Positions 3,650-37,009 of a DNA stretch of 64,000 nucleotides are shown here, piece after piece. Below the pieces are notes generated by a model. It made no database searches, was not told the DNA's origin, and saw only the letters and a list, made by a program, of their open reading frames with translations. The DNA is from Candidatus Micrarchaeaceae archaeon (lineage in GTDB: Archaea; Micrarchaeota; Micrarchaeia; Micrarchaeales; Micrarchaeaceae): the NCBI GenBank assembly GCA_027310825.1, contig DAIDAC010000003.1, positions 1-64,000 of the forward strand, read 5' to 3'. The position numbers and the translations under genes are program-made. Position 1 is the first letter of the stretch. The number at the start of each line of letters is the position of its first letter.

Positions 3650-4924
3650 TTAGGTCTTTCTTGGCGTTACTTCGAGGATAACTCCTGCCCCGATCGTTTC
3701 TCCCATGTCTCTTACTGCGAATCTTCCTAGTTGTGGGAAATCTGCGAACTTTTCGCATGCTATCGGCTTTGTCGGGGTTATCTTCACTATCGCTATGTCT
3801 CCTGTCTTCAGCGTCTGCGGATTCTTCTCGAGAGTCAGTCCAGTCTTTGGATCCTTCTTTTCGAGCAGATCAGTGAACGTGCATGCCACCTGTGCCGTGT
3901 GTATGTGGAATACTGGTGTGTATCCCTTCGCAATCACGTTTTGGTGGTGGAGAACTATTATCTGAGCTGTGAAGTCCTGCGCTACTGTCGGCGGGTTGTT
4001 CGACGGTCCGATTACGTCTCCTCTCTTTATGTCCTTCTTTTCTAGACCCTTGACCGCGAAGCCGACGTTGTCTCCAGGCTCTGCCTTCTGCAGCTGCTGG
4101 TGGTGCATTTCAATGCTCTTCACTTCGCTCTTTACTCCGCTTGGCATTACAATTATCAAGTCACCAGGCTTCATAACTCCGGTTTCTACTCTTCCTACTG
4201 GAATCGTTCCGAAACCTTGTACTGTGTGTACGTCCTGGACCGGAAGCCTCAATGGCTTGTCTGTCGGCTTTACAGGAACCTTTAGCGAGTCGAGCGCTTC
4301 GAGAAGTGATGGTCCGTTGTACCATGGCATCTTCGGGCTCTTTGTCTTGCAGTTGCTGCCTTCCAGCGCAGAGTATGGTATGTATCCGATTATCGTCTCC
4401 GGCCTGTAACCGAGTGTTTTGAGAAGATCACCCATGATCTTCTTTGTGTCTTCGTACTTCTGCTGCGAGAAGTCTACAGCGTCCATCTTGTTTATTCCGA
4501 TTATTATCTGCTTTATTCCGAGGACGTTTGCAAGTATCGCGTGCTCTCTTGTCTGGGCCTGTAGTCCTTCCTTTGCAGAGCAAATAAGCACTGCTGCGTC
4601 GGACTGGCTTGCTCCAGTAATCATGTTCTTGACGAAGTCCCTGTGTCCAGGTGCGTCTATGATTGTGAAGTAGTACTTGTTCGTCTGGAATTCACGGTGG
4701 GCTATGTCTATTGTGATTCCTCTTTCACGCTCTTCCTTGAGCGAGTCCATAAGGAATGCGAACTCGAAGGTAGGCTTGTTGAACGTCTGGGTAAGCTCTT
4801 TCATGCGGGCCATATCCCTTTCGCCGATTGCTCCTGTTTCGAAGAGCAGTCTTCCTACTGTTGTCGACTTTCCGTGGTCGACGTGACCTATAAAGATCAG
4901 ATTCATGTGTGGTTTGTCTGCCAT
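3650..4924 (-). CDS. tuf: Elongation factor 1-alpha (aEF-1A)
   Basis: 424 residues, usual archaeal length. The GTPase delivers aminoacyl-tRNA to the ribosome. G1 is GHVDHGKST, the effector region is RERGITID, G3 is DAPGH, G4 is NKMD, and domains II and III follow without gaps. The start is set by TATAGGTGTAAACATG: an AGGTG ribosome-binding site followed by ATG. A TATA-like ATTATACTATAT lies just upstream. A second TTTAAATATT box near 5048-5058 could give a leader of about 100 nt. Nothing unusual in the protein. Confidence 0.97.
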
Positions 4925-5559: not shown

Positions 5560-5826
5560 ATGGCAAAGCAACGCAGCGTTCCGGGCACGAGCGGGGAAAA
5601 ACCAATGCCGATAACAGAGCTTGCGCGCCTGTATACTATGGTGGCTGCCCACAAAACCCACACTGGTCTAGACATGCCTAGCAAGGAGTTCGACAGGCTT
5701 GTCAGAGAAAAGGCCAAGGAGCTAAGGACCTTCGACATCGAAGCGATCGCCAGGATAAGAAGGCGCGTAGAGAAGGACGTGACGAAGATAGAGCAAGATT
5801 TTAAGTTCTCAACTTCAAAGAAGTAA
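5560..5826 (+). CDS. Small hypothetical helical protein
   Basis: 88 residues, not recognised. Predicted mostly helical and strongly charged, with a heptad-like C-terminal half (IRRRVEKDVTKIEQDF). No zinc or membrane motif. ATG is chosen because the TATA box at 5524 sits at leaderless distance. The 208-residue gene begins seven bases after its stop, so the two are probably one transcript. Both lie directly before the giant repeat protein. Confidence 0.6.
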   Translation: MAKQRSVPGTSGEKPMPITELARLYTMVAAHKTHTGLDMPSKEFDRLVREKAKELRTFDIEAIARIRRRVEKDVTKIEQDFKFSTSKK

Positions 5827-5833
5827 TGGTAAC

Positions 5834-6460
5834 ATGTCATACAGATGCGAACTCTGCAACGACTCTGCCGTAGGGGCACAATCCCACGCAATGCTTGCGC
5901 TCAGGGAGCCTGACAACTACAAAACGCTCATGGAGGAATCTGACCAGTGCCCTGACGTAATAGACAAGATCGTCGAGACCGCGCTTCCAAAAGTGAACGA
6001 GCCGGAATGGTTTGCGCTCGTCGACATGGCCATAAAGCATGTGAAGCTGGCGCACCGCACAATGAGAAGGATAACAGACAAGCTTGTTCCGCTCATGCAG
6101 AGAGAGCAGGCAGAGCTCGACAAGAGGACAAAGCGACTCGACGGCTACAACAAGCTCAGGACAGACGCAAACGTGATACTCAACATGGAGAGCATAGGCT
6201 GGTCTCTGATGCTTCTTCTGGAGCGATGGGATCTTCCAAAGGACGTTGCAGACGGATTCTATCCAATAATACATCCACACGCCAGGGCTACGCTTGCGCA
6301 AAGCGGCTCAGCGCCCGCAGACCTCAGGTCGCTGGCTAGGAGAGAAGTCTCTGCAAGAGAGCTGGCGATATGGTTCAAGGATTCTTTCACGCAAAACTAC
6401 TTCAAGAGCCTGCACTACCGCGAATCTGTTCCAAAGCACGTGCAGAAGCTGGTTTCATAA
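5834..6460 (+). CDS. Hypothetical protein with N-terminal CxxC motif
   Basis: 208 residues, not recognised. It opens with YRCELCNDSAVGAQSHAM, one CxxC pair followed by a conserved-looking His. This resembles the treble-clef start of L28-like proteins, but with no second pair. The rest is helical (residues 35-100 and 120-200) with many Arg and Glu. No membrane segment. It is co-oriented with and seven bases after the 88-residue gene, and about 70 bases before the giant repeat gene, which has its own promoter. Confidence 0.6.
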   Translation: MSYRCELCNDSAVGAQSHAMLALREPDNYKTLMEESDQCPDVIDKIVETALPKVNEPEWFALVDMAIKHVKLAHRTMRRITDKLVPLMQREQAELDKRTKRLDGYNKLRTDANVILNMESIGWSLMLLLERWDLPKDVADGFYPIIHPHARATLAQSGSAPADLRSLARREVSARELAIWFKDSFTQNYFKSLHYRESVPKHVQKLVS

Positions 6461-6498
6461 AAACCGCTGTTTCTGACAATGCGAAGAAAAGCATACAG

Positions 6499-6517
6499 CT
6501 TTAAATATCAGGCAAAT
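6499..6517 (+). promoter_or_regulatory. Promoter of the giant repeat protein
   Basis: CTTTAAATATCAGGCAAAT lies about 28 bases before the ATG at 6531. The distance implies a leaderless transcript and supports ATG 6531 over the in-frame TTG at 6528. Confidence 0.65.
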
Positions 6518-6530
6518 CTGAGTATTTTTG

Positions 6531-9500
6531 ATGACAGAAGAGGAGAAGAAAGTCCAGAGTAGCCCTGAGCATGGCGACGCTAGCACAGAACAAAATGGAG
6601 GCAGCGCGAGCGATGTTCCGGCTAAAGGAAAACCACGGAGATCAAACAAATATCTGAAACACACGGCAGCAGTAATCGATATCTACAAAGAAACACAAAA
6701 GGCTGCAGAGGCGGTTGCTCTTCTATCGCAAAAGGGCATCAATGTGCCGCGCGAATTTATTCTGCGAATCTGGAGAGAGAACAACCTCCAGGCATCAAGA
6801 GACTACGACATCTCACAAAGGAAAAAGTTGACGCCAGAGCAGGAAGCCATACTGATAAGATGCAACGCTGAAAAAAAGTCTACTGTAGATTCAGCAAAGG
6901 AGGTGGGTGTAAATCCAGCAACTGTGTCTAGATTCTGGGCCAGGAAAGGTTTAAAACCGGCTATTCGGAGAAGGATTTTTACCGACGCAGAAAAGGAAAC
7001 GCTATTGAAAGACCACGCAGCTGGGAAAACTGGCGAAGAAGCGGCAAAATCTTTTAAAGTGACTGTGGCATCAGTCTATGCTTTTTGGAGAAGCAGAGGC
7101 CTAAAGCCAAACATCAGGCGCATGGAATCTCTCACTGCAACGCAGCAGGAAATACTTATCAAATGCCACAAAGAAGGAAAAAGTTTGCGTGACAGTGCAA
7201 AAGAAGCTACGACAAACATGACCAAAGTGGCGGAGTTCTGGGAATCGAAAGGATATCCTCCAACACACGCGAATCCAAGAAGGGTCGTAGCAGAAGAAGA
7301 AAAAACAATGATACTCAAAACATTCGAAAGGCTCGGTAGCATAAGCATGACACAAAAAGTGATGGCGGGATCAGGCTTAGGAAGGGACCTAATACGCGCA
7401 ATCGTAGTAGAAAACGGAGGTAAAATAAAGATCGAAGCTCCTCCGGGCACGCACACCAGCAAAGAGGCCGTAGATGCGGCAGTAGAAAAGTTGAGGCAGT
7501 TCTATACAGAGAAAAAACGGTCACCAACAGCCTATGAAGCAGATAAACTTCTTGGTTTAAAGGGCGTCATAAACGCCGCTAACGACAATCTGAGGGCATT
7601 CGGGATAAAAGGGTACAACGACCTGTTAAAGCTGGCAGGTCTACCTTTGAACCGCAATCTCAACAGATTCCTTAAAAAGGAAGACGTAACAGATGCGCTC
7701 GCTGTCCTAAAGCAGTTTTATGACGATAAGAAGGTGCCTCCATGCGAAGATGACGCAAGAGAATTGGGCCTTAGAACCTTCATCGAACACGCACGCGGAG
7801 GGAAATTCGAGCAATTCGGAGTTGGCAGAAGGTTCAATCAAATATTAGAAGCGGCTGGCATACCAGTATTGTTCAGAAAATGGAGGTTCAAAAGCCAAGA
7901 GGACATAGACAACTGCTTTGCGAAGCTAAAGCAATTCTACGATGAACATAAACGTTCGCCAACAGTAGACGATTTAATCAATATGGATCTAAACGGATTC
8001 TACCAGGCTGCAAGGAACGGTAGTTTAGAGCAGTTCGGGATAGAAAAAGGGATAACCTTTGCGGGTCTTCTTAAACGATTGGGACTGCCGGCTGGCAAGG
8101 AATACAAAATCGGCGAGTGGACACAAGAAGAGGTTGACGCTTCAATAGAAAAGCTAAGGCAATTCAAAAAAGAGAAAGGAAACCCACCAACAATCAAAGA
8201 TGCAAGAGCGCTAAGCCTGCGTAAATTCTTCACTGCAGCCGAAGATGGCGAACTAGAAAAATTCGGAATAAAAAAAGATTCGACGCACAATGATGTTCTA
8301 AAGTTTGCAGGTCTACCGGTAAACGTGGATTACGGTAAGTGGTCTACACAGGAAGCCCTTAACGAAGGTCTCGAAGAATTAAAAGCGTTCTACATCGCAA
8401 ACCAAAGGTCTCCGACGCAGTTAGAGACGCATGGACTTGGCTTAGGCGGACTACTCAGCTCTGTGGCAGTTGGGGGGCTAGCGCAATTTGGAATTAGCTG
8501 TTATAACGACCTGCTGAAGGTGGCAGATCTTCCAATAAACAAAGAAGGGAAAAAGTGGACGACAAAAGAGGGCTTGGATGAGGGCCTAAGCAAAATAAGC
8601 GACTTCTACAAAACGCGGGGAAGATCACCTACCGGTGCAGAAGCCACGGCCGAATTGGGCCTCGGTGGGCTTATTAGTTCTGCAGCCCAAGGAACCCTCA
8701 AGCAATTCAACATCTGCAACTACAATGACCTGCTGAAAGCCGCAGGCGCGCCGTTAAACAGACGCAGAAAAGCAAAGAGTAAGGTGACTGCAGACAGATT
8801 TGTAGAATTAGTAAAAGCGGGCATTCCTGTTGCAGAGGCTGCAAAAGAAGCCGCATACGTGCAAGAAACCTCCCTCGCTCCATTCGGAGATGTCGTTGCT
8901 GATGCTTCTGCCGCCGAGCCGGCAAGCAGCAGGATTTCGAGAAAACGCGAAAACCTTTTCTGGCACAAAAGCGAGAATGTCGATGCTGCGCTGACAAGAC
9001 TGAAGAAATTCTTTGAAGACAACGGGCGTTCGCCGACAGTCGGTGATGCGAAGGCAATAGGGCTTGGAGGCCTTGCATCTTCAGCAAGGAACGGAAGGCT
9101 TATTCCGTTCGGGATAAAATCATGGAACGACATTCTTTCAAAGGCGGGCCTTCCATTGAACAGTGAACCGAACAAAATAATAACACAGGAAGAATTGGAC
9201 ACGACAATAAAAACGATCAAGGAATTCCACGCAAAGAACGGCAGGGCGCCAATGACTAAAGAAGCAATATCAATCGGACTTGGCGAGATGATCTCATCGG
9301 CATACAAAGGCGGTCTCAAGGGTTTCGGGATAGCGTCCTGGAACGACCTCCTTGCAAAAGCCGGCGTGCCTGCCAATGTAATAAGGGGCAGATGGGCGAG
9401 CGGGAACGAAGAAGAGGCAAAAAAAGATGCCGATGCAGCAATAACCGCAATCAAGGAATTCCACGCAAAGAACGGCAGGGCACCGACGACAAAGGAGGCG

Positions 9501-12500
9501 CGGTCCCCGCTTGGAATCGGCTGGTTTGCAGACGCAATAATAAGGGGACAGCTCAGGCCGCTGGGCATCAAATCCTGGAACGATGCGCTGAAAAAGGCAG
9601 GCGCTCCGCCAAACTACGAACCGGGAAAATGGCATGATGAAGCACGCGTGAAAGATGCTCTTGCAAAAATAAAGGAACTTTATGAAAAGACAGGAAGGGC
9701 ACCTGAGAGCGGCGAGGTAGAAGAAAAACTCGACATAAAAGGCTTTGCTTCTGCAGCTTACACTGGCGTGCTGGAACCATTTGGCATCAATAGCTGGAAC
9801 GGCGTCCTCAAGAAGCTTGGGATACAGCCGATCAGAGATGAGGGCAGATGGGAAAAGAAGGAGGAAGTCGACAGCGCCCTCGAGAAGCTGAAAAATTTCT
9901 ATACCGAAAAGCAAAAATCTCCAACCATAAAAGATGCGCGCGAAATTGGCCTGGCCAGTTTTGCCGCAGCCGCTTCGAAAAGAGGGGCACTAACACAATT
10001 CGGCATAGACGGCTGGAATGATGTCCTAAGTAAAATAGGTGCGCCTCCTAACATAGAGCACAAAAAATGGCAAGACGAGGCAAATGTAAAGGCGGCTTTA
10101 GCAAAGATAACTGGATTCTACAAACAGAACGGCAGACCGCCTACCCGCGAAGAGGCGGATATAGATTCTGATTTTAAGGGATTCGGTGCTATCGCAGCAA
10201 GCGGCTCATTAAAGCAGTTCGGCATCGAAACCTGGAACGACGCACTTAAGTTGGCCGGAGTGCCGCTCAACCGCGACAAGGAAAAATGGTCTAAAAAAGA
10301 GGAAGTAGACAAAGGAGTAGCATGGGTAAAACAGTTCTACGCCGAGAACAAAAGGTCGCCTACGCAAGATGAGGCAATGGCTACAGGACATGCCGACTTC
10401 TTAGCTGCGGTTAAACAGGGCAAGCTCACTAGAGTTGGAATAAACGCCACAACATGGAATGAACTGCTTTCCTACCTGGAGCTGCCAACTAACATAGAAA
10501 TGAAAAGAGAGTGGAACAGCCAAAAGGCCGTAGATGACATGCTCGAAACGCTAAGGCAATTCTATAGCACCAACAAGCGCGCACCGACACGTCGCGAAAT
10601 AATAGATGACCTGGGCTTCAACAGTTTTGTCCAAGCTGCGCACACAGGCGCGCTTGCGCCGTATGGAGTGCCAAAAGGCAGCAACACCAACGACATAATC
10701 CGCATATCCAGAATCCCGATAAACAGGGAGTCTGCGATATGGACTAACAAAGAAGCGGTAGACAGAGGCCTGGAGACTCTGCGAAAGTTTTACCAAGAGC
10801 ACAAACGCTCGCCGAAGACCTCGGATTTGAGCGATATCGGCCTATATGGATTCTTCCAGTCGGCCGCGCTCGGCAGGCTAAAAGCGTTCGGCATAGGCAA
10901 CTCGTACAATGACCTTCTTAAAGCGGCAGGCCTTCCGACGAATCGAGAATACGGCAAATACGATACCAAAGAGAAAGTCGAGGAAGGCCTTGAAGTTTTG
11001 AGGCAGTTCCACAGAGAGCACGGCAGAGCTCCAACATTCGACGAGGCAACTGCCGAGCCGGGGCTTTCCAATTTACAAGGCGCTGCCAAGCAGGGCTCGC
11101 TGGGGCAATTCGGGATAGGCAAAAAATACAACGATCTCATAAGGGCTGCCGGCATTCCTGTAAACCTCGATTACGGAAAATGGAAGGAGAGAAAAGGGCT
11201 TGACAGGGGGCTTGCAGTGCTGAAAGGGCTATGCACCACGCTTCAAAGAACACCCAAGAAGGAAGAGGCGCTTGAAGCAGGCTTGCAAGGATTTTTCACA
11301 GCAGCATCGAGAGGCGAGTACAAAGAGTTTAACCTTCCGGAAGGAACAACCTTTAACGATCTATTAACGTATGCAAACATTCCTGTCGGCAGGGAAAGCG
11401 GCAAAAGCTCTGAAACTGTTGGGCAGAATGGAGAGCAGATGACTGTATCCCTGGCTCCATTCGGAGATGTTGTTGCTAACGATCTTGCACAATTGGAGGA
11501 CGCTGCAGCAAAAACATTTGCTGGCGAACTGATCTTGAATAAAAACAAGAATCCGGACTGGACAAAGAAAGAGAATGTCGAAATAGCTCTGGAAAGGATC
11601 AGGAAGTTTGACCGGGCAAACGGCAGGCCGCCGACATATATAGAACCACAATCACTCATCTCAGCTCCTTCAAAACGAGCTACAACAAACGGCAATCACC
11701 CTGTTCCGAAAGAAGCGACATGGGTGAACATGCGTTTCTACAAAAGAGACGAGGCATTAAAGCCAACGCAGACTCCGCTCATAATACACAATGCAGAGGT
11801 TCTAGCCGAAACTGCTGTTGCCGCACCTCGGCAAGAAACGGACAGCAGACAGAAGCCGGACTACACTGCGGAAGTGCCTGCAATCCAAAAGCTCAGAAAA
11901 GGGGAGCCGATCACCAAAAAAGAATTGGAGGAGGCAAAGGCATCGAGGCCTGTAATCGCTTCAATGATACTGTTCGAGTCTATGGCCGACAAACTCAAAG
12001 AGCCGATTCTCGACATTGCATCAGGACCAACAAGCCCTGTTGCGCATGCTGCAAAGCTAGTTGGAAAGAGCGTAACATGCATCGACAGGAAGATTTACTA
12101 CTTGGGCATGTTAAGAGAGGAAATCGGAATTAACGAGAACGCCAGCGCAAATGGATATGTGCATGGAAACGCGTTCAGGCTTCCGTTCGCAGATGGATCC
12201 TTCAACACGGTCACATCGAGCTACTTCCTCGACATCTACAGAAACAAAGAGCGAATAGTCCAAGCTCTGTCCGAGATGAGGCGTGTTGCAGCTCCGGACG
12301 GAAAGGTGATCATTGAAGTGACCGAGGCATTCGGCAAATACCTTCCATCGTTGAAGCCAATACTGGAGCAGATCGGCCTTGATGCAACTGTAACGGTCAA
12401 TAGACAGCCATTCGCTGACGACTCAGAGGCGAAGTCTTACGTGCTAGAGTGCGTGCCAGTCCAGCCTGTTGCAATACGGGCAACTGTAGAAAAGATTCCT

Positions 12501-12914
12501 GGAACCGACGTCGCTGTGGTCGAATATCAAGGAAGACCAAAGATTCACATAGTGCCAGAAGAAAAGGAGCACGTTGTGATAGTCAATGTGACAGAAGCGC
12601 TCGACAATCTACCAGAAGCAGCAAGGCATTTCGTAATGCAAACAATACTCGAACCGGTCTCGTGGCGTTTCAACATGAGCGACAGATATGTAGAACATTT
12701 CAAGCAGTACAACAGTATCAGCATAGAAGAGGCATTCGGCCGCCTTGGAGTCAAAGCTGACCTCATAAGGACACAGGTTGTCGGAGACAACTACTGCAAC
12801 GAGCTGGTGCTGAGGATGACGAAGAAGGCGCACGATGAGCTTTACAACACATTCCACGACCACGTGATCAATGCAAGCGCGAGGCACATAGCAAGGAACA
12901 AGAAAAAGGCATGA
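6531..12914 (+). CDS. Giant repeat-array protein with HTH-like units and a SAM-methyltransferase-like domain
   Basis: About 2127 residues. Residues 1-40 are disordered and charged. Residues 42-300 hold about five HTH-like units (for example VDSAKEVGVNPATVSRFW and EAAKSFKVTVASVYAFW). Then come 17 complete ~70-residue repeats (about residues 306-745 and 808-1623) and one half repeat near 1676-1705. Their consensus is a helix, G-R-S-P-T-x-x-E-A, L-G-L, AA-x-x-G-x-L, F-G-I-x-S-W-N-D-L-L, AG-x-P-x-N. This resembles the homing-endonuclease-associated (HNH) repeat. From about residue 1820 a class I methyltransferase-like domain shows motif I (LDIASGPTS), an acidic strand end (CIDRK) and FRLPFADGSFNTV. 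No DPPY or PC motif is present, so an ordinary N6-adenine or C5-cytosine DNA methylase is unlikely. The last ~190 residues are unrecognised. I infer an array that reads nucleic acid, fused to a modifying or SAM-sensing domain. Confidence 0.85.
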   Translation: MTEEEKKVQSSPEHGDASTEQNGGSASDVPAKGKPRRSNKYLKHTAAVIDIYKETQKAAEAVALLSQKGINVPREFILRIWRENNLQASRDYDISQRKKLTPEQEAILIRCNAEKKSTVDSAKEVGVNPATVSRFWARKGLKPAIRRRIFTDAEKETLLKDHAAGKTGEEAAKSFKVTVASVYAFWRSRGLKPNIRRMESLTATQQEILIKCHKEGKSLRDSAKEATTNMTKVAEFWESKGYPPTHANPRRVVAEEEKTMILKTFERLGSISMTQKVMAGSGLGRDLIRAIVVENGGKIKIEAPPGTHTSKEAVDAAVEKLRQFYTEKKRSPTAYEADKLLGLKGVINAANDNLRAFGIKGYNDLLKLAGLPLNRNLNRFLKKEDVTDALAVLKQFYDDKKVPPCEDDARELGLRTFIEHARGGKFEQFGVGRRFNQILEAAGIPVLFRKWRFKSQEDIDNCFAKLKQFYDEHKRSPTVDDLINMDLNGFYQAARNGSLEQFGIEKGITFAGLLKRLGLPAGKEYKIGEWTQEEVDASIEKLRQFKKEKGNPPTIKDARALSLRKFFTAAEDGELEKFGIKKDSTHNDVLKFAGLPVNVDYGKWSTQEALNEGLEELKAFYIANQRSPTQLETHGLGLGGLLSSVAVGGLAQFGISCYNDLLKVADLPINKEGKKWTTKEGLDEGLSKISDFYKTRGRSPTGAEATAELGLGGLISSAAQGTLKQFNICNYNDLLKAAGAPLNRRRKAKSKVTADRFVELVKAGIPVAEAAKEAAYVQETSLAPFGDVVADASAAEPASSRISRKRENLFWHKSENVDAALTRLKKFFEDNGRSPTVGDAKAIGLGGLASSARNGRLIPFGIKSWNDILSKAGLPLNSEPNKIITQEELDTTIKTIKEFHAKNGRAPMTKEAISIGLGEMISSAYKGGLKGFGIASWNDLLAKAGVPANVIRGRWASGNEEEAKKDADAAITAIKEFHAKNGRAPTTKEARSPLGIGWFADAIIRGQLRPLGIKSWNDALKKAGAPPNYEPGKWHDEARVKDALAKIKELYEKTGRAPESGEVEEKLDIKGFASAAYTGVLEPFGINSWNGVLKKLGIQPIRDEGRWEKKEEVDSALEKLKNFYTEKQKSPTIKDAREIGLASFAAAASKRGALTQFGIDGWNDVLSKIGAPPNIEHKKWQDEANVKAALAKITGFYKQNGRPPTREEADIDSDFKGFGAIAASGSLKQFGIETWNDALKLAGVPLNRDKEKWSKKEEVDKGVAWVKQFYAENKRSPTQDEAMATGHADFLAAVKQGKLTRVGINATTWNELLSYLELPTNIEMKREWNSQKAVDDMLETLRQFYSTNKRAPTRREIIDDLGFNSFVQAAHTGALAPYGVPKGSNTNDIIRISRIPINRESAIWTNKEAVDRGLETLRKFYQEHKRSPKTSDLSDIGLYGFFQSAALGRLKAFGIGNSYNDLLKAAGLPTNREYGKYDTKEKVEEGLEVLRQFHREHGRAPTFDEATAEPGLSNLQGAAKQGSLGQFGIGKKYNDLIRAAGIPVNLDYGKWKERKGLDRGLAVLKGLCTTLQRTPKKEEALEAGLQGFFTAASRGEYKEFNLPEGTTFNDLLTYANIPVGRESGKSSETVGQNGEQMTVSLAPFGDVVANDLAQLEDAAAKTFAGELILNKNKNPDWTKKENVEIALERIRKFDRANGRPPTYIEPQSLISAPSKRATTNGNHPVPKEATWVNMRFYKRDEALKPTQTPLIIHNAEVLAETAVAAPRQETDSRQKPDYTAEVPAIQKLRKGEPITKKELEEAKASRPVIASMILFESMADKLKEPILDIASGPTSPVAHAAKLVGKSVTCIDRKIYYLGMLREEIGINENASANGYVHGNAFRLPFADGSFNTVTSSYFLDIYRNKERIVQALSEMRRVAAPDGKVIIEVTEAFGKYLPSLKPILEQIGLDATVTVNRQPFADDSEAKSYVLECVPVQPVAIRATVEKIPGTDVAVVEYQGRPKIHIVPEEKEHVVIVNVTEALDNLPEAARHFVMQTILEPVSWRFNMSDRYVEHFKQYNSISIEEAFGRLGVKADLIRTQVVGDNYCNELVLRMTKKAHDELYNTFHDHVINASARHIARNKKKA
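7450..8765 (+). repeat. Protein repeat block 1 (six ~70-residue units)
   Basis: Six tandem units inside the giant gene, each ending in a block like FGIKGYNDLLKLAGLPLN. Units 2 to 4 are the most divergent, with insertions before the final helix (unit 3 has FGIEKGITFAGLLKRLG). The block ends in an Ala-rich linker containing SLAPFGDVVAD. DNA identity between units is low, so this is an old array at protein level rather than a DNA satellite. Confidence 0.85.
8955..11400 (+). repeat. Protein repeat block 2 (eleven ~70-residue units)
   Basis: Eleven tandem units after the first linker, again ending with a linker containing SLAPFGDVVAN. Units 8 and 9 of the whole array share a nearly unchanged DNA stretch covering IKEFHAKNGRAP (about 9220-9250 and 9450-9482), which points to a recent unit duplication. 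Units 7 to 12 keep the strongest SWND motif. Unit 13 has TTWNELLSYLELP and unit 14 GSNTNDIIRISRIP in place of it. Confidence 0.85.
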
Positions 12915-31516: not shown

Positions 31517-32671
31517 ATGCCACAAAAGTCAAGTCCTGAAAAACAGGCCCAAAAGGGGGATGTTCTTGCAAAGGAAGCCGAAGGAATGGTGCGGTATTTC
31601 ATAGACAGGAACGGAAGGATTCCGAATGAGAACGAGGCTCTGTCCCAGCTCCACCTCGGCGCTTTCATAGAGAGGCAGAAGCGCGAGGGATCAAGCTATG
31701 GGGCATTCATAAGATCCCTACACACCGGCAGGCTTCTTAGAGGCAGGAGCCTTGAAGAGGTCGAGCGAATGCTTGGCGAGATCAAGACAACAATTGAAAA
31801 ATTCCAGAAAGAGCAGTTCAGGCTCCCCACATCATCGGAAATGACAAAATTGCATAGCGATACAATGCAGAAGGTTGCCAAAGGCGCGCTATGGTCCATG
31901 GGGATATTCGAATACAATGATATCATAGGCTACTTCGGCATTAGGCCGCAGAGCAGAGAGGACTTCAGGCTTGCACGCCTTGCCACGCATGCAGTCGAAT
32001 CAGTGAAACAGCTCCGCGAGCGCGTTCCAAATGCATTTGTAGACGAGCGCAAGGTGCGGGAGCTAGGCAACGGTTCATTTTTGTATGAACTGAGGCACAA
32101 AAGCTACTCACATCTAAACATTAACGGCTTCGACGATTTCCTAAAACTGATCGGCATTGAGCAGCCGGTAGCGAAGCCAGTTGCGCTGAAGAGGAAGCAT
32201 TATAGGATAGGCGACAAGCCCAACCCTAGCGCCATCTACCAGCCCCACGGAGCCGCAGCTGCCTATCTGAACTTCTGCAAAGAGCGCGGGCGCATTCCTA
32301 CGATGGAAGAGATGAAGGAGCAGCTGAACATGGGCAGCATAATCCAACGCGCCGATTCAGGCCAGCTTGCATCTAAGGGCATAATGAACTTCCAAGGATT
32401 CCTGTCTATGCTCCGCGCAAGGACAGAGCTTGCTCTTGAGGAATTCTGGACTACTGAAGCAGGAATGGCAGAGGCACAGAGGAGAGTGCGCGCCCACGCA
32501 TCGGCGCAGAAGAAGGTTGTCACCACGCAGCAGATGGTGGACGAGCTGCACCTGCTGCCATTCATTCGCAAGAACCCAGTCGAAAGATTGGGCTTCACAA
32601 CATGGAGCGCGTTCGCGCGCAAGCTTTCAGAGGATGAACTACAGCTAAAACCGCAGGATGATGGAGCGTGA
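31517..32671 (+). CDS. Second repeat-family protein (about five divergent units)
   Basis: 384 residues of the same repeat family as the giant protein, but more diverged. Recognisable pieces are DRNGRIPNENEA, LHLGAFIERQ, FRLPTSSEMTKL, SMGIFEYNDIIGYFGI, NINGFDDFLKLIGI, ERGRIPTMEEM and LGFTTWSAFARKL. These give about five helix-GRxPT-FG-xx-N/D-LL modules. There is no methyltransferase or HTH block. The charged first 20 residues are probably disordered. Its promoter carries the CTAAATATC motif. Presumably nucleic-acid-binding if the family is. Confidence 0.75.
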   Translation: MPQKSSPEKQAQKGDVLAKEAEGMVRYFIDRNGRIPNENEALSQLHLGAFIERQKREGSSYGAFIRSLHTGRLLRGRSLEEVERMLGEIKTTIEKFQKEQFRLPTSSEMTKLHSDTMQKVAKGALWSMGIFEYNDIIGYFGIRPQSREDFRLARLATHAVESVKQLRERVPNAFVDERKVRELGNGSFLYELRHKSYSHLNINGFDDFLKLIGIEQPVAKPVALKRKHYRIGDKPNPSAIYQPHGAAAAYLNFCKERGRIPTMEEMKEQLNMGSIIQRADSGQLASKGIMNFQGFLSMLRARTELALEEFWTTEAGMAEAQRRVRAHASAQKKVVTTQQMVDELHLLPFIRKNPVERLGFTTWSAFARKLSEDELQLKPQDDGA

Positions 32672-33635: not shown

Positions 33636-34439
33636 ATGGCGACACCGAGGAACGGCAACAGAATCACAGCCGTGGCTTCTTCTATTCCGACCGCTAATCT
33701 GAAAAGAGACGAGCGGCCGAGAGAGCTGGTGAGGAGAGAGTCGGTAGCAACAGCTCCGGTTCAGAAAAGAGAGGAAAGGCAGGCAAATTATGTCATCACG
33801 TGCGAGCCGCGCGAAGCGATCGAGCAGGCTGTAAAAAGGATCCAATTGTTCTACAAAGCATACGAAAGGTCGCCGACCGCCAGGGAAGCGATAACAGAGC
33901 TCAGGATCGGCAGCATTATCACTTCTGCGAACGCTGGCAGGTTCAAGGATCTAGGGGTAGAGAAGTGGAACGATATTCTGACGTTGGCTGGAGTTCCTGT
34001 AAACCTGGCAAGGAACCAATGGACAACGGAGAAGGCCGTCAAGGAGGTAACTACAGCAATCAAGGATTTTTACTTTAAGAATGGAAGGGCGCCGAGCAGC
34101 AAAGACGACGCCATAGAACTTGGCATAATCAGCATTATCGGCCCGATGTACCGTGGTGCTCTGAGGAAGTTTGGAATAATGTCCTGGAACGACCTCCTTA
34201 GAAAAGCTGGCGTGCCCCTGAACAAGCCACACACACGGATTACAAAGGAGAGGGTAGACGATGCGATCAAGAAGATGCAGAGGTTCAAATCAGAAAATGG
34301 CAGAATGCCGTCGACAAACGAGTTCCGCTTCAACCTTGGCCTCAATGGAATCTTCACGGCGATTTGCAGAGGCTATCTGAAGCAGTTCGGAATTGCATCG
34401 TGGAAAGACCTAGTCACAGTCGCAGAGAACGCAATTTAA
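33636..34439 (+). CDS. Third repeat-family protein (three canonical units)
   Basis: 267 residues. After about 45 flexible Arg-rich residues there are three clean units of the giant protein's repeat. Landmarks are ERSPTAREA and VEKWNDILTLAGVPVN, GRAPSSKDDA and IMSWNDLLRKAGVPLN, then GRMPSTNEF and IASWKDLVTVAENA. It has no catalytic domain. This is the simplest member, and the best template for defining the repeat. Promoter: TTATAAATATTT at 33594-33605, about 36 bases before the ATG. Confidence 0.8.
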   Translation: MATPRNGNRITAVASSIPTANLKRDERPRELVRRESVATAPVQKREERQANYVITCEPREAIEQAVKRIQLFYKAYERSPTAREAITELRIGSIITSANAGRFKDLGVEKWNDILTLAGVPVNLARNQWTTEKAVKEVTTAIKDFYFKNGRAPSSKDDAIELGIISIIGPMYRGALRKFGIMSWNDLLRKAGVPLNKPHTRITKERVDDAIKKMQRFKSENGRMPSTNEFRFNLGLNGIFTAICRGYLKQFGIASWKDLVTVAENAI

Positions 34440-35458: not shown

Positions 35459-37009
35459 TCAGAGCGTGCTCTGCTTTCCATGGTCGTTTGTGTCCTTGTA
35501 AGCTAGCGTCGACTGGATCTTCAGCACAAGCTCTCTCATCCTTTTCTCCTTCGCTCTTCCTATCATGAGATAGGTTTCGTCTTTCGTAGCCTTTGTAACG
35601 AAGATCAGCACTTCGCCGAAACTGATTCGCCCTGCTCTGCCCTTCCTTTGGATGTTTCTTATCTCGCTAGCCACAGGTTCGTAGAACATTACCACGTCAA
35701 CGCTAGGTATGTCGAGTCCTTCTTCTGCAATCGATGTTGCGACTAGCGCCCTGAACTTCTTGTCCCTGAAGTCCTGGATCACTTGCTGCTGGCTCGCCTG
35801 CGTAACTCCGTCCTTTTTTCCTACGAAAGAGTGTGCACTGATTCCGTTGTGGTTCAGAAGATCTGTGAGCTTCTTTATCGTCGATCTGTACTGCGCGAAT
35901 ATTATCATGCTGTTGCTCGGATACTCTTTCTTTATCGTGTTGACTATCTGGAACATCTTCGGATGCTCGAATCCCTGCGCAAGCGCATCCATCGCCACTT
36001 TGTTCGCCAGCACGACATTAGGATTCGCAAGTATGCCCTGCACCGCCCTGCTCTTCGTGTCCCTGTTCTTCAGCGACTCTATGTAGCTGACGAATGGGTA
36101 GAGCCCTTCGCAGGTGACAAGGTCGTATGCGTGGACCAGATCGAGCACGTAGACGTAGCTGTTCATCGCCGAGAACTTGTAGCTTGGAGCCTGTATCCTC
36201 TTTATGTTGTCGCCTATTTCTAGAAGACGGCCTTTCGGAAGGGTCTCGAAGTTGTTGGAGTAGCTAAGCCCTTTGTGGTAGAGCTTTCCCAGATGCTCTT
36301 CTATTACCGGTCTCAGATGGTTAGCCACTTCGTTTATCTCTGGAGTTTTGTCGACGTAGTATGTCTTTATCGCCTTCCCCATCACGTAGGGCTCGACATC
36401 AGGATCAGACGATATCCTTATCTCTATGTTCTCTATTCCAAGGATCTGCACAAGCTCGTTTATCTTCTCGCGCTTGCTTCCTGGCGATGCAGTCAGGCCT
36501 AGCAGCTGGATTCCTCGTGTTTTGCATTCGTCAGCTATGTGGGTGTATGCATATTTTCCTGCCGCTCTATGGCATTCGTCAAAGATGACGATTCCCACAT
36601 CGTCCAAATTCAATCTTCCTGCTTTTATGTCGTTTGATATTGTCTGCGGAGTAGCAGCGATTACCTTTGCATTGTCTTCTATCTCCTTCCTTTTTGAAGC
36701 GCTTGTTGTTCCTGTGAGAAGCGGCATGCGCTCTTTCTCCACCTTTAGGAGAGCCTCGAGCGACTTGTGGTGCTGTTCGCTGAGGGGCTTTGTTGGAGCA
36801 AGGATTATTGCCTTCTTTCCGTTGTGGAGGACAGCCGCCATCGCAAAAATGGCTATGAGCGTTTTTCCCAAGCCTGTAGGCAGCACTACAAGCGTATTCT
36901 TTCCGGTGTACACGCTCTTTATGATGTTGATCTGGTAGGATCTGGGCTCAATCTGCGAGGTGTCGACAAGCCTGTCATATGGGCTCAGCTCGCTCCACGA
37001 AGGATTCAT
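35459..37009 (-). CDS. hef: Hef/FANCM-type helicase without nuclease domain
   Basis: 516 residues, the helicase half of Hef only. Motif I is VLPTGLGKT, motif II is FDECH, motif III is LGLTASPG, and motif VI is IQRKGRAGR. The insert domain between the RecA folds is present (about 220-330). The C-terminal XPF-type nuclease and HhH of euryarchaeal Hef are absent: the protein ends about 60 residues after motif VI. It remodels stalled forks and junctions; cleavage may come from the neighbouring Hjc. Confidence 0.9.
   Translation of the reverse strand: MNPSWSELSPYDRLVDTSQIEPRSYQINIIKSVYTGKNTLVVLPTGLGKTLIAIFAMAAVLHNGKKAIILAPTKPLSEQHHKSLEALLKVEKERMPLLTGTTSASKRKEIEDNAKVIAATPQTISNDIKAGRLNLDDVGIVIFDECHRAAGKYAYTHIADECKTRGIQLLGLTASPGSKREKINELVQILGIENIEIRISSDPDVEPYVMGKAIKTYYVDKTPEINEVANHLRPVIEEHLGKLYHKGLSYSNNFETLPKGRLLEIGDNIKRIQAPSYKFSAMNSYVYVLDLVHAYDLVTCEGLYPFVSYIESLKNRDTKSRAVQGILANPNVVLANKVAMDALAQGFEHPKMFQIVNTIKKEYPSNSMIIFAQYRSTIKKLTDLLNHNGISAHSFVGKKDGVTQASQQQVIQDFRDKKFRALVATSIAEEGLDIPSVDVVMFYEPVASEIRNIQRKGRAGRISFGEVLIFVTKATKDETYLMIGRAKEKRMRELVLKIQSTLAYKDTNDHGKQSTL

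Follow-up and report, generated by a model that had tools for sequence, protein, structure and literature searches.

A 2127-residue archaeal protein that places a long repeat array ahead of a predicted methyltransferase domain

Introduction

What does an archaeon with a small genome do with a protein of 2127 residues in which a long array of repeats stands ahead of a methyltransferase-like domain? The question is raised by a gene in the first 64,000 nucleotides of contig DAIDAC010000003.1 (Candidatus Micrarchaeaceae archaeon, assembly GCA_027310825.1), the stretch of DNA that we refer to here as the window. A sequence-only reading had described the product, which we call protein A, as a possible reader of nucleic acid, one repeat contacting one site by analogy with transcription activator-like effectors (TALE) or pentatricopeptide repeat (PPR) proteins, and directing a targeted modification. 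Following this up computationally, we find a similar methyltransferase module behind unrelated arrays in related genomes, and we discuss whether protein A may instead be a large scaffold that binds nucleic acid and positions its enzyme domain.

Results

Protein A and its methyltransferase module

The open reading frame (6528–12914, forward strand) begins with TTG and has an ATG at 6531, from which the 2127 residues are counted; it contains no internal stops, and its length is well beyond chance expectation. The layout first described, with helix-turn-helix (HTH) units, repeats, an S-adenosylmethionine (SAM) domain and a tail, is borne out by the frame, by a hidden Markov model (HMM) of the repeat unit and by Pfam (Table 1). 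The gene has a G+C content of 48.6% and of 50% at third codon positions (GC3), resembling the adjacent housekeeping genes, and compositional foreignness was rejected on these host-like values. No close relative of protein A over its whole length was found in the genome contigs, viral contigs and phages searched.

Judged from its sequence, the C-terminal part of protein A is a class I SAM-methyltransferase domain, as had been proposed: Methyltransf_11 matches residues 1827–1928 over its whole profile (positions 1–95 of 95, E 4.9e-11), and both the SAM-binding motif region LDIASGPTSPVAHAA (LDIASGPT) and an acidic loop (CIDRK) are present. Targeted modification of nucleic acid fares less well, since the DNA-methyltransferase motifs [DNS]PP[YFW] (motif IV) and PC are absent from the domain and the tail, and the best family match is of the UbiE/MenG type; DNA base methyltransferase families (N6A/N4C, C5) are likewise missing from the Pfam and NCBIfam output for the protein. 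DNA would appear no more likely as the substrate than a protein, RNA or small molecule.

A search with this C-terminal part returned many ordinary small methyltransferases and two long proteins, from genomes G120 and G278. The G120 protein (L087:5783-11248, forward strand; 1821 residues) has 12 units of an 84-residue repeat, for which there is no Pfam or PHROG family match, and the G278 protein (L088:832-3291, reverse strand; 819 residues) has five units of a 55-residue repeat (..GLxGKSPxELR..); in both, a methyltransferase and a tail follow. In pairwise comparisons, the methyltransferase of protein A is 30% identical to that of G120 (E 6.5e-19) and 25% identical to that of G278 (E 6.4e-13), in each case over about 200 residues that include the upstream helix, where an AIxKL stretch is common to all three. 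In a phylogeny that includes other archaeal methyltransferases, those of protein A and G120 are sisters (support 100/98). Array methyltransferases in the order-wide search are these three only, and a phylum-wide methyltransferase search added only proteins of ordinary size, above the 1e-11 limit. In two further genomes of the order, arrays unrelated to that of protein A precede a similar predicted methyltransferase module, which is new here and hints at a mix-and-match targeting design.

Homology between the units of protein A and the G120 and G278 repeats was rejected by profile comparison, the three repeat types being mutually unrelated. The G278 gene adjoins two FtsZ-like genes, as judged from their translations. 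A 1075-residue protein of G187 (L089:487-3714) reads, by eye only, as an SNF2-type helicase; downstream of this part is a methyltransferase domain matching the profile used in the C-terminal search above.

Table 1. Features of protein A and of two further unit proteins in the window
Feature	Position	Strand	Basis
Protein A, 2127 residues: HTH region, repeat array, predicted methyltransferase and tail	6531..12914	+	Single open frame
N-terminal HTH region, residues 40-302	6648..7436	+	Self-profile units, sub-threshold Pfam, PHROG
Array part 1, units 1-6	7437..8765	+	Unit HMM, alignment
Linker 1, SLAPFGDVVA element at 8871-8911	8766..8945	+	Sequence comparison
Array part 2, units 7-17	8946..11402	+	Unit HMM, alignment
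Linker 2, second SLAPFGDVVA element at 11448-11488	11403..11543	+	Sequence comparison
Half unit 18, first half only	11544..11654	+	Unit HMM 20.9 bits, model positions 4-34
Predicted methyltransferase module with upstream helix (AIQKL...)	11871..12491	+	Pfam; kinship of about 200 residues to G120 and G278 proteins
Methyltransf_11 core	12009-12314	+	Pfam
C-terminal tail, no recognised domain	12492..12911	+	No Pfam match
Protein B, 384 residues, about four degenerate units of the A-type family	31517..32671	+	Unit HMM; two units also in genome scan
Protein C, 267 residues, three units of the A-type family	33636..34439	+	Unit HMM, 58-71 bits each

The HTH region and the repeat units

At the N-terminus, a self-profile gives three clear tandem HTH units (residues 100–147, 151–197 and 201–245; positions 6828–7265), flanked by two weaker HTH-like stretches (residues ~42–90 and ~255–303); of the "about five" units first counted, three are therefore clear and two less so. 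PHROG matches in this region are to a D5-like regulator (E 6e-8) and an HTH DNA-binding protein (E 2e-4; residues 42–135), and HTH_23 and Sigma70_r4_2 match below threshold only in Pfam.

The array begins directly downstream. An HMM built from protein A's own units confirms 17 complete repeats, at 81–98 bits each, together with the half unit, at the positions first described. The units are 72–79 residues long, typically about 73, with a mean pairwise identity of 36% (range 24–53%) in the alignment. The repeat had been likened to the homing-endonuclease-associated repeat PF18780 (HNH_repeat), and a search of single units with that profile had been proposed as a check, with a divided outcome: the sum over the protein is 107.8 bits against a cut-off of 26, yet no stretch passes singly. 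Unrelated families also sum over the array, for example PMBR with 57 bits, and the summed PF18780 score alone is weak. No single unit exceeds the PF18780 threshold in a search of the protein's own genome, which shows the extent to which the units have diverged.

Profile–profile comparison provides the firm basis for the relationship. The units of protein A were compared with those of Bacillus plasmid and haloarchaeal proteins that are clear PF18780 members (E 5e-109 to 5e-244), giving 97.1% over 56 columns (P 5.9e-11), and 96.1% with a wider unit set. This supports the kinship, and we conclude that the unit of protein A is, by this comparison, a diverged and longer relative of PF18780. Members of the family include hypothetical proteins with 14–15 units on Bacillus subtilis plasmids (WP_259608181.1, WP_242304685.1) and Halomontanus HNH endonucleases with 6–7 units (WP_317176023.1, WP_337653229.1), and PF18780 arrays occur in archaea, bacteria and phages.

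Variation, charge and predicted fold of the array

Reading of one site by each unit predicts, by the analogy first drawn, a fixed scaffold with few variable positions. This is not what we see. Core residues are retained (P30 in 17/17 units; N61, G50 and P70 in 16 each), but 27 of 72 columns have an entropy above 2.3 bits and are scattered across much of the unit. Within the folded core, variability is higher between GRxPT and FGI (12/23 columns above 2.3 bits, as against 5/18 in helix 1 and 4/18 after FGI), and this concentration, the length of the array and the pattern in the related Bacillus array, which is strongly conserved in its scaffold with variation focused before FGSFN, are what could be expected of a TALE/PPR-like reader that targets nucleic-acid modification. 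We nonetheless regard such a reader as highly improbable, in view of the low mean identity, a unit length that varies over seven residues, an interruption of 60 residues after unit 6, unit charges that range from -4 to +6, the lack of any solenoid match in a fold search of the PDB and a methyltransferase without DNA-methyltransferase motifs.

The Bacillus plasmid arrays (L075:5749-8364 and L074:7737-10208) have 14–15 bona fide PF18780 units with an almost constant scaffold, and their variation is concentrated immediately before the FGSFN motif. These plasmids carry more arrays close by, and Bacillus and Geobacillus phages have related ones. Because its scaffold is more constant and its variation concentrated, the Bacillus array would be a better modular-reader candidate than protein A, and a better place to seek a code.

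In an AlphaFold2 model of three units (12 aligned blocks), each unit forms four helices, with a predicted local distance difference test (pLDDT) score of 89 and a predicted template modelling (pTM) score of 0.56. Structure prediction of three to five units had been suggested as a second check, and it answers in part: the modelled fold of the unit, a four-helix bead, is trustworthy, whereas the packing of units against each other is uncertain. A fold search of the viral library BFVD ranks an uncharacterised siphovirus protein first (E 8e-3, probability 1.00, TM score 0.41), which we treat as a lead only; weaker matches include several helicases and proteins with helicase-associated domains.

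Several units are near-neutral in charge, and this is compatible with an array that serves as a protein–protein or structural scaffold around the methyltransferase, DNA being bound by the N-terminal HTH region only. The presence of three unrelated arrays ahead of a similar methyltransferase could be understood in the same way, particularly as the 84-residue repeat of G120 is alpha/beta-looking and has no known DNA-binding relative. We consider this explanation rather unlikely, given the kinship with PF18780, the recurrent pairing of units with nucleases, helicases and HTH arrays, and the observation that every unit protein is basic, with isoelectric points (pI) of 8.5–10.1.

Distribution and growth of the arrays

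The genome (0.98 Mb in 15 contigs), whose archaeal origin is seen from its EF-1alpha and Hjc proteins, contains 39 unit matches in four proteins, A, B, C and D; protein D, on another contig, has 1219 residues with 16 units and little besides. Within the order, few genomes have the unit (13 of 164; 2 of 14 in the genus), and in a phylum-wide sample scanned with a narrower profile it is present in 9 of 295. Unit-pattern scans of genome contigs and viral contigs gave no confirmed match to the protein A unit, and neither protein A nor protein D matches a PADLOC anti-phage defence family at E <= 0.01.

Stand-alone unit arrays are present in G004, G164 and G210. Elsewhere the unit is combined with other domains: an 845-residue protein of L022 has two units at its C-terminus and an AAA-type ATPase domain that Pfam matches weakly, a superfamily 2 (SF2) helicase of L071 has one C-terminal unit, and in L070 one unit is followed by a tandem HTH array. 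Together with the HNH nuclease that partners PF18780 units in haloarchaeal plasmid proteins, these examples agree with the earlier statement that the repeat is found alongside proteins that act on DNA.

EF-1alpha is encoded near a unit-array gene in two genomes of different families (3650-4924 with 6531-12914 in the window; L068:3802-5070 with 5724-7409, the unit protein of G164), and a DEAD-type helicase gene lies near proteins B and C in the window (35459-37009) and likewise beside the ATPase–unit protein in L022 (G055). These neighbourhoods possibly reflect positional orthology, or chance, and a functional linkage was dropped, two coincidences among about eight loci being insufficient.

The array of protein A is split between units 6 and 7 by linker 1, of about 60 residues, and linker 2 precedes the half unit. 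The SLAPFGDVVA elements of the two linkers are 83% identical over 41 nucleotides, with no further copy in the genome, and the repeated element with the half unit resembles the mark that duplication of a block would leave. In a unit tree, the units of protein A group largely together, with units of protein C and G004, a pattern consistent with expansion inside individual genes. It appears that the arrays lengthened through intragenic duplication of single units and of blocks, and that they have been exchanged as modules ahead of the methyltransferase.

Such growth, with the patchy spread of the unit and the degenerate state of protein B, is what might be left by a decaying or selfish element, a homing-element-derived array captured by chance beside a metabolic methyltransferase and lacking any array-specific function. 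The 2127 codons of protein A are intact, however, and of host-like composition, core residues are retained in nearly all 17 units, and two other intact arrays also precede a similar methyltransferase; we find this origin decidedly unlikely.

Discussion

A scaffold that may position a methyltransferase

The explanation that we favour, and to which we give an even chance, sees protein A as a large scaffold that binds nucleic acid and positions a UbiE-like methyltransferase. In this picture, the three HTH units and the four-helix beads of the array would bind DNA, or structured RNA, along a long stretch, with many weak unit contacts summed, and the scaffold would hold the methyltransferase at the bound place. 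Given its UbiE/Methyltransf_11-like character, the enzyme might act on a bound protein, on RNA or on a small molecule, and not on a DNA base. We infer nucleic-acid binding from the HTH region, the kinship with PF18780, the partners of the unit and the basic pI of the unit proteins, all of which point to it.

Several observations weigh against this explanation. The 15-unit Bacillus array has a net charge of +90, whereas the units of protein A are only mildly basic, at -4 to +6 each. We found no solved structure of a PF18780 relative and, in the literature searched, no functional study of PF18780 arrays, and nucleic-acid binding by PF18780 is itself inferred. The PDB fold search with the three-unit model gave no match at E <= 0.001, neither TALE, PPR nor other solenoid. 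The model of the protein A methyltransferase is poor (pLDDT 44), and the substrate class is not readable from the structure. Finally, the G278 methyltransferase lies on a long branch, and its grouping with those of protein A and G120 is neither rejected nor supported (p-AU 0.35, approximately unbiased test).

A bolder proposal is an enzyme family of small-genome archaea whose one methyltransferase module would be directed by exchangeable, evolvable arrays at the N-terminus, drawn from three or more unrelated repeat types; these arrays would offer extended surfaces for nucleic-acid recognition and would determine the place of methylation. We regard this as a long shot. If it is true that three different arrays aim similar methyltransferases, this would be a new form of modular targeting; otherwise protein A still stands as an unusual case of an array that has expanded in a genome of less than 1 Mb. 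Proteins A, D (almost only its 16 units) and C (three units in 267 residues) form a tractable set for examining nucleic-acid binding by the repeat and a possible unit-by-unit mode of binding.

Comparison with known systems

Protein A shares with PF18780 proteins the core GRxPT..E ... FG(I).(W/F/Y)N..L..AGL.P.N and a long tandem arrangement. Its units are longer, however, at about 73 residues against about 57–60, with a longer helix-3 stretch, and have FGI.(x)N where PF18780 has FGS(W/F)N. It also carries a predicted methyltransferase in place of an HNH nuclease: Pfam finds no nuclease domain in protein A, and the HNH linkage is an association rather than a requirement, since the Bacillus arrays also lack one. 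The helicase-associated domain (HA, PF03457) is similarly a small repeat on DNA-acting enzymes, SF2 helicases including those of giant viruses; several of the weak viral-library fold matches are of this kind and G232 has an SF2 helicase with a C-terminal unit, but the sequence score of protein A, 17.7 bits, does not reach the cut-off of 28.4.

TIGR04096, a DNA phosphorothioation-associated putative methyltransferase, is matched in its middle, best at positions 193–239, by the Bacillus PF18780 array (130 bits summed over three stretches, below the family cut-off of 150), whereas protein A itself has no match; none turned up in the genome of protein A either, in a search whose control was likewise not detected. 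The Bacillus match means that a DNA-modification setting may offer a precedent for a PF18780-like stretch next to a putative methyltransferase. Among class I methyltransferases, the UbiE/MenG type (Methyltransf_11/25) is closest to that of protein A (TIGR01934, E 1e-12), but the score of 47.7 bits is far from the cut-off of 158, and the domain in protein A is fused to an HTH region and an array and has its own tail. Individually, the parts of protein A are of known kinds, whereas their combination, the size of the protein in a small genome and the swapping of modules stand out as unusual and, within the reach of the tools used, undescribed.

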